This document shows positions 9,128 through 23,850 of a stretch of DNA of 23,945 nt, piece by piece (position 1 is the stretch's first letter; every line of letters begins with the position of its first letter). Source of the DNA: a virus; IMG/VR virus record IMGVR_UViG_3300032893_000271, positions 1 to 23,945 of that record, one strand, 5' to 3'. Below the pieces are notes generated by a model, which was not told the origin of the DNA, did not search any database, and was given only the letters and a program-made list of their open reading frames with translations. A program made the translations under genes and the position numbers.

Positions 9128-9143
9128 TCGTTCGCTGTCAAGT
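9128..9143 (+). promoter_or_regulatory. Stoperator-like repressor site 3
   Basis: Reads ACTTGACAGCGAACGA along transcription (-). The polA stop codon TGA is the TGA of TTGACA in this site. It is followed at once by the ribosome binding site GAAAGG of the 122-aa gene. Confidence 0.7.
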
Positions 9144-10955
9144 GTCGGCCCCGTAAAGGGAGCCCCATGAGCGGCCACCGACCTCGGCGTCGGTGCTGAT
9201 AAAGACAGGTCCCATCTGCTCGGCCATGATCCGTCCGATCTCATCGGCGCCCCACTGCGCCTCACCCTCCGGGACCGAAGCCAGGATCTCGTCATGGATC
9301 GGTAGACGGAGGTAGCGGGTGAACCCAGCGGTGTGTAGGCGTAGCAACGCCCTGCCGGTAACATCCCGGGATGTAGATTGGATCAGGTAGTTGAGGGCGC
9401 TGTACGCCCTCGTCGGGTCCACCGGAAGACGCCTCCCCATCGGCGTTACGATAGCCCCAGTTTGACTGGCTTCCCGCTGTAACTTCAGTGAGAGTTTCTG
9501 GACTCCGGGGTACGCCCGGTCGAAGCCGTCGACCACACGTTTGGCAGTAGGGAAGTCCAGCCCGGTCTGTTCCGCAACCGTTTTGGCACCACCACCGTAG
9601 ACCCTGCCGAAGTTCACTACCTTCGCCCACTTGCGCTCCTTATCGTCCTTCGTGACGTGGGGGCCAAACGCGGCCTGCGCTGTCATCAGGTGGAGATCAG
9701 CCCCGGCACGGAAAGCCTCGATCATCGTCGGGTCCTCGGAGAGGGCAGCCAGGACACGCAACTCCTGCGCCTGATAGTCCACGGAAGCAATCCGATGGCC
9801 TGGGTCCGCCAAAAAGCATCGGCGGATCTTCCAATCCCCGGCAGGCAAAGTCTGGGCCGGTATGCCAGTGATCGACATCCGGGCGGTTCGGGCACGGAGT
9901 GGGTTGATTGAGGCGTGGCACCGATCGTTGGCGTCCCTCCCTTTTAGGAAGGTTTCCACCCATGTTTTCCTCCATTTCCCAGCCTTTTTCGCTTTGATGA
10001 CAGCTCGGGCGAACCCTCCCGTGTCCGGGTCTTTCGCCAGACTCTGTAGAAGCTCGTCGTCTACCTTCCGATTACCCGAAGGTGTCCTTCCTAGGACCGG
10101 GACCCCACGGCGTTCCAAGGTGTCTGCCACCATCTCGGTGGAGTTAACGTTCTCGCATCCGTAGGACAGCGCGATCCCGGCGTTGGTGCTCTCGATGAAA
10201 TTCAGCTCGGCGGAGAGACCTTCGGCGTACTCCACATCGAGCAGGAAGCCTGTCCGCTCCATGTACGAGCAGACTTCAGCGAGCTTGTATTCGTACGGGA
10301 CCAGCTCTGAAGAAGATCCAGGGACCAGAGGGGTCAGTTTCTGGAGTAAGCGGACCACCAGGATCGGGTCCATCCCCGAGTAGAGCTGGTAGTGCGGGTC
10401 GTTCAGATCCACTTTCTTCCATACGTTCGCCTTCGTTGTCTTGTGCGCCTTCGCCAGATCCGCCATCAGCGTCTTGACGTTGTTGGCTACATCGGCGTCG
10501 ATATAGTGCCGGGTCAGCTCCTCCAACGAGTGGCCTATCCCACCTTCTTTCCTGGAGTCTCGCGGGTCGACCAGGTGGGCGAGGATCTTGGTGTCAATGA
10601 CCTTCGGCCACAGTTCTTCCATAGCGACCCCGAGGGTCCGGTCGAAAACCTGTAGGTCGTATGAGGCGTTCTGTAGGACGAGGCGGTTGACGCCTTTGAG
10701 CGCCAACCGAACATCCTCAACAAACCGACCACCCAGCTCCACCGGGACGACGTACGCTTCGGTCTCAGTTCCAAACTGAACGAGTCGGCACCGGAACCCG
10801 TCTGAATAAATATCGAGCCCGGTTGTCTCAGAGTCGACTCCAAGACACGCCAGGTTTCCTCGTACGAAGTCACGGAAGCCTTCCAGATCCTCTTCAGTTT
10901 CGACGACGTTGATAACGACCGGTTCTCCAGCGACCTCGTGCCGGTGCCCGATCAT
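9138..10955 (-). CDS. polA: DNA polymerase I (family A) with 3'-5' exonuclease domain
   Basis: The replicative or repair polymerase of the phage, 605 aa. It lacks a 5'-3' exonuclease domain and opens with a DEDD-type proofreading domain (D41 and E43 in DSETTG). Polymerase motif A holds D393 in VDYQAQELR, and motif B has K445 and Y453 eight residues apart in KVVNFGRVY, as in Klenow K758/Y766. Motif C is H554-D555-E556 in PIHDEI. The size matches L5 gp44-type enzymes. ATG 10955 overlaps the stop of the upstream HTH gene (ATGA). Its stop lies in stoperator site 3. A 37-bp piece (9903-9939, residues about 340-351) recurs inverted near the right edge of the window. Confidence 0.96.
   Translation of the reverse strand: MIGHRHEVAGEPVVINVVETEEDLEGFRDFVRGNLACLGVDSETTGLDIYSDGFRCRLVQFGTETEAYVVPVELGGRFVEDVRLALKGVNRLVLQNASYDLQVFDRTLGVAMEELWPKVIDTKILAHLVDPRDSRKEGGIGHSLEELTRHYIDADVANNVKTLMADLAKAHKTTKANVWKKVDLNDPHYQLYSGMDPILVVRLLQKLTPLVPGSSSELVPYEYKLAEVCSYMERTGFLLDVEYAEGLSAELNFIESTNAGIALSYGCENVNSTEMVADTLERRGVPVLGRTPSGNRKVDDELLQSLAKDPDTGGFARAVIKAKKAGKWRKTWVETFLKGRDANDRCHASINPLRARTARMSITGIPAQTLPAGDWKIRRCFLADPGHRIASVDYQAQELRVLAALSEDPTMIEAFRAGADLHLMTAQAAFGPHVTKDDKERKWAKVVNFGRVYGGGAKTVAEQTGLDFPTAKRVVDGFDRAYPGVQKLSLKLQREASQTGAIVTPMGRRLPVDPTRAYSALNYLIQSTSRDVTGRALLRLHTAGFTRYLRLPIHDEILASVPEGEAQWGADEIGRIMAEQMGPVFISTDAEVGGRSWGSLYGADT
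9903..9939 (+). repeat. 37-bp repeat, copy in polA (inverted partner at 23626-23662)
   Basis: Perfect reverse complement of 23626-23662, 13.7 kb away. Here it encodes part of the polA stretch RDANDRCHASIN, which belongs to the conserved region before motif A. This copy is therefore likely the original and the distant one the derivative. Confidence 0.9.
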
Positions 10956-11549: not shown

Positions 11550-12098
11550 TCAGAAGAAGATGGGACGTTCGTCGGAGCCCCTAGGAGGCATCCAGCCCTT
11601 CCACGGCTTGCCGTTGGCTTTGGAGACACCGGACTTGAACGTCCAGCCCGGTCCGGGAGCGGGCGGGGAGCCCGCGGGCGCGCTTTGCGCTTCAGCGGGA
11701 GCCGCCGCACGAGGAGCGGATGCAGTTCCGGTGAGGCCTACGAAGGCCGCACGGGGCTTGCTGTTGTACTCGGCGTACGCTTCAGCAGCCCTCTGGCTGC
11801 GCTTCAGTAGCTCGTTGAGCTGGTCTGCGCTGTCTCCGCTGAAGACGGCCAGGGCCTCCTCGATCGTGGCTGCGTGGATGACCACCCACGGGGCGTCATA
11901 CCCGGCGCCACCCTTGAGGGTGACAACCACCTTGCCCTCTGTCGCCGGGATGTTGGTTACAGCCAGCGTGGGGCCTGCCTCAGGAGCAGGAACGTTGTTC
12001 CCGGTCTTGTGGTCACTCACCCGTAGCCAGGGGTCGGCTGGCGGGCCGGGGCAGGGAGAAGTTTGGAAAGCCCCGTCGAACGGGTCGTAAGCTGTCAT
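11550..12098 (-). CDS. Candidate ssDNA-binding protein, 182 aa
   Basis: ATG 12098 has AAAGGAA upstream and follows the reductase stop by 19 bases. The core (GPTLAVTNIPATEGKVVVTL, then GGAGYDAPWVVIHAATIEEAL) looks like the OB-type/ssDNA-binding protein found near polA and the reductase in many actinophages. A Pro/Ala-rich linker (about 125-150) leads to a C-terminal GKPWKGWMPP...PIFF tail, which in relatives tends to carry Cys for zinc; here the Cys are missing. The ssDNA-binding role is from memory of family context, not proven. The N-terminus holds two repeat patches shared with the exonuclease gene (11994-12033 and 12054-12075), which makes residues 8-35 suspect as acquired sequence. Confidence 0.55.
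   Translation of the reverse strand: MTAYDPFDGAFQTSPCPGPPADPWLRVSDHKTGNNVPAPEAGPTLAVTNIPATEGKVVVTLKGGAGYDAPWVVIHAATIEEALAVFSGDSADQLNELLKRSQRAAEAYAEYNSKPRAAFVGLTGTASAPRAAAPAEAQSAPAGSPPAPGPGWTFKSGVSKANGKPWKGWMPPRGSDERPIFF
11994..12033 (-). repeat. 40-bp direct repeat, copy in the ssDNA-binding-like gene
   Basis: Matches 21649-21688 in the exonuclease gene at 39 of 40 bases, in the same strand and the same reading frame, 9.7 kb away. It encodes PWLRVSDHKTGNN; the single difference makes S into R in the other copy. Confidence 0.9.
12054..12075 (-). repeat. 22-bp inverted repeat, copy in the ssDNA-binding-like gene
   Basis: Perfect reverse complement of 21695-21716. It lies 20 bases upstream (in reading direction) of the 40-bp repeat, while in the exonuclease gene the gap is 6 bases. 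Allowing one mismatch the match extends five bases further. Confidence 0.88.
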
Positions 12099-21378: not shown

Positions 21379-22248
21379 TCATCCTTCCGCGTACGCGCAG
21401 GCGTACGCTACGTTGCAGAATCTGCACTTGTCAGGGTCCGGGAGAGGATCAAACCTCCCGGCTTCGATGTTGTCTTGCAGCTCCCGGAACTTCTCAACCA
21501 CCCTGTTACGTGTCCAGTTTCGGAGGTCGAACGGGTACGTCGGCTTGCCCGACCGGCCCAGCCAGTAGTCACCTTCGTAGGGGCCGAACAGTCCGTACAT
21601 CTCGCTGAGAGCTACGGAGTAGACGCCTAGCTGGAAGTCATCACCCGGGTTGTTCCCGGTCTTGTGGTCACGCACCCGTAGCCAGGGGACCAGGCGGGGC
21701 TTTCCAAACTTCTCCCCGCCCCCGTCGTAGCTGGTGGTGCTCTTGGAGTGATCCACGATCACCGCGTCGATGTAGCCTCGGATCTGGACCTCATCCAGTT
21801 CGATGTCAAACTCCAGCTCGATAGCCGGGGTGCCGTCCGGGGTGATCCAAATGACCTCCTCCGGGTGGCTGGTGGCCCAGCTGATGTACTTGGCAACCTG
21901 TTCCCTCCCGATGTCGAACCTGCGGGCCAAATCTCTCTCCCCGTCGTACGGCCCGGACCTGAACCACCACTCGAAGTTAGGTGTCAAGCGTGCGTACTCG
22001 TTGGCTGCGTCTGCGTACGACTCCCGGAATAGGGCCTGAGCGTCCTGTAGAGACATCTGACGCCCACTCCGCTCCCATCCCTCTATGGCGGCGTGGACAG
22101 CCGTTCCTTGGGCCAACCAGGCGGCAGGACGCTGCCATTCCTGCTTGACACGGGACAGGTAGTACGAGTGTGGGCACCGCTCGTAGCTTTTGAGCTGGCT
22201 GACGGACAGATACCTCTTCGGCTTAGGGTCGAACGGATCAGTAGGCAT
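21379..22248 (-). CDS. Cas4/RecB-like PD-(D/E)xK exonuclease with Fe-S cluster
   Basis: A nuclease of 289 aa. H52 in GTAVHAA, D161 in YIDAVIVD and D194-x-K196 in RDHKTG form the RecB-type active site. C25 near the N-terminus (YERCPHSYY) with C275, C278 and C284 near the C-terminus (CRFCNVAYAC) make the four-Cys iron-sulfur site of the Cas4/AddB group. It probably processes DNA ends in recombination or replication. ATG 22248 has AGAGG seven bases upstream; a TTG two codons earlier has no proper spacing. The active-site segment RVRDHKTGNN lies in the 40-bp repeat shared with the gene at 11550. Confidence 0.9.
   Translation of the reverse strand: MPTDPFDPKPKRYLSVSQLKSYERCPHSYYLSRVKQEWQRPAAWLAQGTAVHAAIEGWERSGRQMSLQDAQALFRESYADAANEYARLTPNFEWWFRSGPYDGERDLARRFDIGREQVAKYISWATSHPEEVIWITPDGTPAIELEFDIELDEVQIRGYIDAVIVDHSKSTTSYDGGGEKFGKPRLVPWLRVRDHKTGNNPGDDFQLGVYSVALSEMYGLFGPYEGDYWLGRSGKPTYPFDLRNWTRNRVVEKFRELQDNIEAGRFDPLPDPDKCRFCNVAYACAYAEG
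21649..21688 (-). repeat. 40-bp direct repeat, copy in the exonuclease gene
   Basis: 39 of 40 bases match 11994-12033. Here it encodes PWLRVRDHKTGNN including the catalytic D194 and K196, so function constrains this copy. Confidence 0.9.
21695..21716 (-). repeat. 22-bp inverted repeat, copy in the exonuclease gene
   Basis: Perfect reverse complement of 12054-12075, six bases from the 40-bp repeat. It encodes GEKFGKP (residues about 178-185). Confidence 0.88.
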
Positions 22249-22261
22249 CGTCAAACCTCTC

Positions 22262-23299: not shown

Positions 23300-23485
23300 T
23301 CACCACCACGTGCGTCCGTTGCACTGTTTGGTGGGACGGACAGGATGCCTGCGACGGTAGTTGACCAGGCGCGATACCTTCGTCTTACGCTCCTCGATGA
23401 TCGACGCTTGCCAACACGACCGGCACAGGACGGTGCCCTCCGGTTGGAGGACACCTCCTGTGTAATCGAACGGAACACCGGTCAA
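23300..23485 (-). CDS. Small Cys-containing basic protein, 61 aa
   Basis: TTG 23485-23483 overlaps the upstream stop as TTGA. It starts MTGVPFDYTGGVLQPEGTVL and has CRSC followed by a basic segment (EERKTKVSRLVNYRRRH) and a later Cys, which suggests a partial zinc-ribbon. It is probably translated by coupling, since no separate Shine-Dalgarno is obvious. Unrecognised. It is the last gene before the repressor promoter region. Confidence 0.6.
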   Translation of the reverse strand: MTGVPFDYTGGVLQPEGTVLCRSCWQASIIEERKTKVSRLVNYRRRHPVRPTKQCNGRTWW

Positions 23486-23850
23486 GACAGGACCTCTATA
23501 CGGTGCCAGTTACGCTCACCGATCCAACTGAGCAGCTCGTTCCATGTCTTGGCGGGCCAACCATCGTAGGCATAGCATGCACCGTCTTGGGTGATGTACC
23601 AGCGATCTCCTGCTTTGATAGCGGCGAGGGACGCCAACGATCGGTGCCACGCCTCAATCAACGCGCCTTGGGACTGCGCCAGTTGTAGGCTCAGGTTGGG
23701 CTTGACGAACCGGATCACGGTTCCTTCTTCTGAAGGCTCATCCGGGAGGTACCAAGCACGAGCCTCCTTAGCCAGCGTTAGCTCGGCCTCTAACTCTTCG
23801 ATCCGTGCGTCCAAACCCTGCACGGCCTCTTCAACAAGGGAAGTTGCCAT
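23482..23850 (-). CDS. Coiled-coil protein, 122 aa, with an antisense polA patch
   Basis: ATG 23850 has an AGAGAGAT purine tract upstream. Residues about 8-32 form a coiled coil (GLDARIEELEAELTLAKEA). The C-terminal half (AGDRWYITQDGACYAYDGW, then NELLSWIGERNWHRIEVL) is a compact Trp-rich domain. Between them residues 64-75 (LIEAWHRSLASL) are encoded by a 37-bp stretch that is the exact reverse complement of part of polA. The insertion keeps the frame open and adds a helical segment. Function unknown. Confidence 0.78.
   Translation of the reverse strand: MATSLVEEAVQGLDARIEELEAELTLAKEARAWYLPDEPSEEGTVIRFVKPNLSLQLAQSQGALIEAWHRSLASLAAIKAGDRWYITQDGACYAYDGWPAKTWNELLSWIGERNWHRIEVLS
23626..23662 (-). 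repeat. 37-bp repeat, copy near the right edge (inverted partner at 9903-9939)
   Basis: Exact reverse complement of the polA segment. Because the polA stretch is in a conserved region, this copy is probably derived from it. Confidence 0.9.

Follow-up and report, generated by a model that had tools for sequence, protein, structure and literature searches.

Our main finding is that a soil phage related to mycobacteriophages appears to carry pieces of its exonuclease and DNA polymerase genes that were recently copied into two other genes, and partly flipped. The stretch of DNA analyzed, hereafter the window, comprises an entire IMG/VR virus record (23,945 bases), and its relevant features are collected in Table 1. 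In our preferred reading, to which we give a probability of roughly 0.7, the patches arose recently as templated insertions, while phage DNA was being replicated or a break repaired, by template switching together with inversion of a spacer, the donor being this very genome or a sister of it.

The window probably corresponds to about half of a phage genome, because the genomes of its relatives are approximately 50 kb long. Where they can be aligned, its genes share about 74-75% nucleotide identity with those of L5-type (cluster A) mycobacteriophages, and the ribonucleotide reductase and polymerase proteins of its nearest relatives are about 74-76% identical to its own. The plus strand bears tail genes and a serine integrase, the minus strand the replication genes. 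At 10 positions, among them 9130, 11531, 12400, 15326, 18046, 19786 and 20855, the window carries a GTTSNNTGTCAAGT site, whereas 0.23 would be expected; most of these sites have plus-strand orientation, and they are presumably stoperators like those of L5-type phages.

Table 1. Coordinates of the genes, repeats and patches in the window (donor and recipient roles are those derived in the text)
Feature	Position	Strand	Basis or detail
Cas4-like PD-(D/E)XK exonuclease, donor	21379..22254	minus	PF12705 E=3e-19; ATG start probably at 22248
40-bp segment of the exonuclease, donor	21649..21688	minus	includes both invariant DxK residues, D196 and K198
Exonuclease hairpin, donor	21695..21724	minus	CGGGGC 21695-21700; 17-nt spacer 21701-21717; GCCCCCG 21718-21724
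Window-specific exonuclease insertion, ~20 codons (HSKSTTSYDGGGEKFGKPRLVPW)	21682..21750	minus	alignment with relatives; structure model
L5 gp49-family gene, recipient	11550..12098	minus	PF25690 E=6.6e-27; phrog_364 E=1e-42; alignments
40-bp copy of the exonuclease DHKTG region, recipient site	11994..12033	minus	same frame, 39/40; VSDHK against VRDHK in the exonuclease
Junction between direct and inverted parts, 14 nt	12034..12047	minus	weakly alignable to exonuclease sequence
Inverted part	12047..12075	minus	arms CGGGGC (12047-12052) and GCCCCG (12070-12075); 17-nt spacer 12053-12069
DNA polymerase I, donor of the third patch	9138..10955	minus	PF00476 E=2e-59
37-bp segment of the polymerase encoding RDANDRCHASIN, donor	9903..9939	minus	native; conserved in polymerase relatives
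Small gene, recipient	23482..23850	minus	phrog_1342 E=7e-24
In-frame 54-bp insertion in the small gene	23626..23679	minus	23626-23662, inverted 37/37 polymerase copy; 23663-23679, 17 nt beside it
Direct repeat	11994-12033 / 21649-21688	both read on minus	40 bp, 39/40
Inverted repeat	12048-12075 / 21695-21722		28 bp, 27/28
Third match, inverted	9903-9939 / 23626-23662		37 bp, 37/37 (100%)

The repeats are far beyond chance: the longest exact matches within the window measure 23 bases in direct and 37 bases in inverted orientation, compared with maxima of 20 and 17, respectively, in 100 third-order Markov sequences. An earlier note, made from the letters of the window, had described two of them. 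The 40-bp direct match was recovered as reported there, in the same frame in both genes, where it reads PWLRV(S/R)DHKTGNN on the minus strand. The 22-bp inverted match (12054-12075) is real and exact, but it is part of a longer one of 28 bp; consequently, of the gaps of 20 and 6 bases given between the two parts, the second stands and the first is reduced to 14. The third match, absent from the earlier note, joins the polymerase gene to the small gene.

Comparison with relatives, which the note had proposed as the way to learn which copy is original, designates the exonuclease. This protein shares 61-64% amino acid identity with the mycobacteriophage 'Cas4 exonuclease', and the DxKTG motif encoded by the 40-mer is present in 106 of 107 homologues, in which D196 and K198 are invariant. 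The other copy sits in the variable N-terminal linker of a protein that belongs to the L5 gp49 family, as indicated by a match to the whole-protein profile and by the position of its gene beside ribonucleotide reductase. Among relatives' gp49 linkers that could be located, none of 93 carries DxKTG; they are instead rich in Lys, Ala and Pro (for example, EPAKKAAPKKAP). This distribution makes the exonuclease the donor of the 40-mer and the gp49 linker its recipient. The existence of the copies, their direction and orientation, and the inversion of the spacer described below are all shown by the sequence itself. The label 'candidate ssDNA-binding gene' given to the recipient in the note is unsupported: the protein matches only PF25690 Phage_gp49 and phrog_364, and no SSB or OB-fold family. 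As a side observation, gp49-family C-termini are of two types, GPDWxYKSG...WMPPRGS and the cysteine-bearing HGEMxFKSGVSKxxGKPY...F, and these alternatives suggest a domain exchange.

The inverted part proved to have a precise structure. The gp49 gene has the layout CGGGGC - 17 nt - GCCCCG, and the exonuclease gene the layout CGGGGC - 17 nt - GCCCCCG. Read directly, the two spacers agree at 4 of 17 positions; with one of them reverse-complemented, they agree at 16 of 17. Flipping the spacer only raises the local alignment score between the two genes from 84 to 128, and merges the direct and inverted parts into a single block of about 80 bp, while the flank to the right of the hairpin aligns weakly (p about 0.08). 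What is flipped is in essence 17 nt of spacer, framed by perfect 6-bp inverted-repeat arms, and an inverted segment bounded by short arms able to pair is the configuration looked for in a template switch. Folding gives a hairpin for the exonuclease copy (-8.3 kcal/mol, z -2.7), and the fold of the gp49 copy is not significant. The nearest relatives (74-76% protein identity) carry no such segment, flipped or unflipped; the hairpin region is part of a window-specific insertion within the exonuclease, and is foreign within gp49. In a predicted structure, the exonuclease insertion forms the tip of a beta-hairpin (pLDDT 55-56, for values above 85 in its surroundings and in the core), and no source for it was detected above background within the window.

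In the third patch, the polymerase segment belongs to a motif, RDxxxRCHASIN, that is conserved among polymerase relatives. In the small gene, the 18-residue insert lies within LQLAQSQGALIEAWHRSLAS, which the closest relatives read uninterrupted as KYNLSYTFAAIK; it is missing from all eight aligned relatives, and its motif from all 13 homologues. Because the polymerase segment is conserved and the insert is missing from every aligned relative, it was the small gene that received the 37-mer from the polymerase gene, as an antisense copy. Its junctions show little or no microhomology. The insert is predicted to lie between two strands (pLDDT about 50, in a model of moderate confidence, pTM 0.57). 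For the 17 nt that complete the insertion, no source above background was found within the window; these, like the exonuclease insertion, may derive from the portion of the genome that lies outside the window.

Divergence between copies is low, at 0/37, 1/40 and 1/28. Because the copies have barely diverged compared with relatives that are about 74-76% identical in ribonucleotide reductase or polymerase protein, the patches are estimated to be far younger than the splits from the nearest relatives. Such values are compatible with similar, recent ages, the counts being too small for dating.

The inserts are absent from relatives and identical to native segments elsewhere in the genome, as expected of templated insertions. 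We propose that DNA synthesis under way at or close to the gp49 linker jumped onto the exonuclease gene, perhaps at a short shared CGACGGGG stretch, a possible microhomology at one gp49 junction. Some 80 nt, including the DHKTGNN codons, would then have been copied before a switch back, with replacement of part of the native Lys/Ala/Pro-rich linker. In the same or another event, and in either copy, the 17-nt spacer between the 6-bp arms would have been inverted as the polymerase switched strands in the hairpin. A separate event would have copied 37 nt of DNA polymerase I, inverted, into the loop of the small gene. It is conceivable that the copying enzyme was the phage's own polymerase I. All insertions are in frame, in a linker or in low-confidence loops; in-frame patches at tolerant sites would fit a selection that lets only harmless copies pass, and we infer that their effect on the recipient proteins is nearly neutral. 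Of the scenario in the earlier note, in which one event copied the active-site segment and flipped its neighbour, the recent copy with a flip is retained, and the single isolated event is contradicted by the third patch. Template switching, or duplication plus local inversion, remains the best account, with the flip now narrowed to the spacer.

That template switching was at work, as opposed to the capture of broken fragments, is what we infer from this arrangement. With fragment capture, short pieces released as nucleases degrade sister genomes in the course of infection would have been end-joined into double-strand breaks, in either orientation, by host Ku/LigD or a similar system. Mycobacteria possess an end-joining pathway, and one direct plus one inverted insert with intact donors is an outcome that it could produce; it is possible especially for the 37-mer, whose junctions share little homology. 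However, the 17-nt inversion between perfect arms is a template-switch signature, for which fragment capture needs an extra step, and because of this hairpin inversion template switching is favored for the gp49 patch. We consider fragment capture rather unlikely overall.

How unusual such patches are was examined in relatives. Among some 80 relatives similar in length (15-22 kb), no dispersed inverted pair exceeded 17 bases. When inverted pairs were sought in all 141 relative loci (2.1 Mb, partly redundant), the only exceptions were gene paralogues in one locus (L005), a single 18-mer and, in several loci, 19-bp repeats close to a contig end. The L005 match, 32 bp long and inverted, was rejected as a patch, as it corresponds to two diverged inverted paralogous genes. 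The 24 kb of the window hold at least two separate donor-recipient pairs with inverted patches, whereas nothing comparable turned up in relative sequence totalling about 2 Mb, part of it redundant. It is doubtful, albeit conceivable, that the lineage is engaged in an unusually active self-patching, which would copy short stretches of its replication genes, in both orientations, into tolerant loops of other genes and diversify its proteins.

An excess of patches in one contig is also expected from an artefact, either template switching by a polymerase in the tube during DNA amplification, or a misjoin in metagenome assembly; inverted patches of this kind occur only in this metagenomic contig and not in the 80 or so relatives, and a strand-displacement replisome is known to make chimeric template-switch products in vitro (PMC9484634). 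We nevertheless hold an artefact to be quite unlikely. On either side of each patch, the sequence goes back to that of the original gene, so that two precise switches between sites 9.6-13.7 kb apart would be needed; the insertions keep the frame, contain no stops and fall in tolerant loops; the gp49 and exonuclease copies already carry point differences; and a misjoin at a shared k-mer makes no second copy.

A role for the inverted copies themselves, kept for complementarity in trans between mRNAs of the four co-stranded genes, is very improbable. Both inverted patches do join co-oriented genes, with complementarity over 37 bp between the small gene and the polymerase gene and over 28 bp between the gp49 and exonuclease genes (starting 23 nt inside the gp49 gene), and the predicted duplexes reach -100 and -74.5 kcal/mol; yet such complementarity is automatic for any inverted copy between co-oriented genes, and no relative conserves it. 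Finally, a domain piece conserved in gp49 and exonuclease since an old common origin deserves practically no credence: it is refuted among the sampled relatives by the gp49 linkers devoid of the motif and by a nucleotide identity that extends to third positions, and the pattern that the note had set against a recent patch, both segments in both genes of relatives, fails (106/107 exonucleases, 0/93 linkers).

Several known systems were also considered and, on the defining features that were tested, rejected. A diversity-generating retroelement would have an adenine-biased repeat pair of about 100 bp, whereas mismatches here are 1/40 and 0/37, and the orientation is inverted. CRISPR spacer acquisition is not indicated, as neither patch is flanked by a family of regularly spaced repeats. 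Against a mobile or shared element, IMG/VR and GTDB, scanned for patterns from the patches, yielded just one near-chance match, in two sister contigs. The polymerase-patch 20-mer was absent from other IMG/VR contigs (the window's own record possibly lying outside that scan), and a 22-mer of the inverted part was absent from GTDB species genomes. The match concerns a 20-mer of the inverted patch, which is found again in two phages unrelated to this one, within a gene for a protease-capsid fusion (L061:5041-5060 and L062:2114-2133); it extends to 28/32 over 32 bp, in two contigs related to each other, and is probably due to chance.

Phage genes are mosaic, yet time usually obscures the small-scale mutational steps behind this. 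In the window, the donor, the recipient, the orientation and the flipped hairpin spacer are all legible, which offers a rare and clear natural trace of template jumping, and makes a specific mechanism of protein-loop change testable in a natural phage. It also shows that a short intragenomic repeat in a phage contig may be a recent copy, and does not necessarily reflect homology or regulation. The class of mechanism is already known; the presence of several such patches in one phage is unusual, and searches of the openly accessible literature turned up no phage described as having dispersed inverted patches.

Among relatives, mycobacteriophage Mulciber (L053) offers a partial likeness, as identical 103-bp and 55-bp pieces recur in the neighborhood of its exonuclease, but these are direct, local (1-2 kb) and longer. 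In Mulciber and its close kin, exact copies lie in a neighboring ORF (L053:8637-8739, 9520-9574, 10539-10691), and the second copies adjoin each other, with 5 bp (GTTCA) in common; this looks like a partial duplicated exonuclease gene, and was not retained as a comparable patch. Inversion of the spacer of an inverted repeat by template switching is documented in coding genes (PMC8604942), a study that credits the first suggestion of template switching to Ripley, in 1982, in bacteriophages. The template-switch mutations known at short inverted repeats comprise such spacer inversion and the homogenization of the arms. The window resembles these mutations in that a spacer between arms is inverted in a coding gene, in frame, but its hairpin also lies within a block copied from a gene 9.6 kb away, whereas the usual event is intramolecular. 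Templated insertions at breaks or collapsed forks, known mainly from eukaryotes and with polymerase theta (for example, PMC11292364), share with our patches a short insert from elsewhere, in either orientation, and an unchanged donor; here the genome is that of a phage, and polymerase theta is not involved. Lastly, phage mosaicism by illegitimate recombination likewise places non-homologous junctions inside genes, with selection for function as a filter, but the patches of the window stem from the phage's own genome, or from a sister one, measure 37-80 bp, and include one inverted part.
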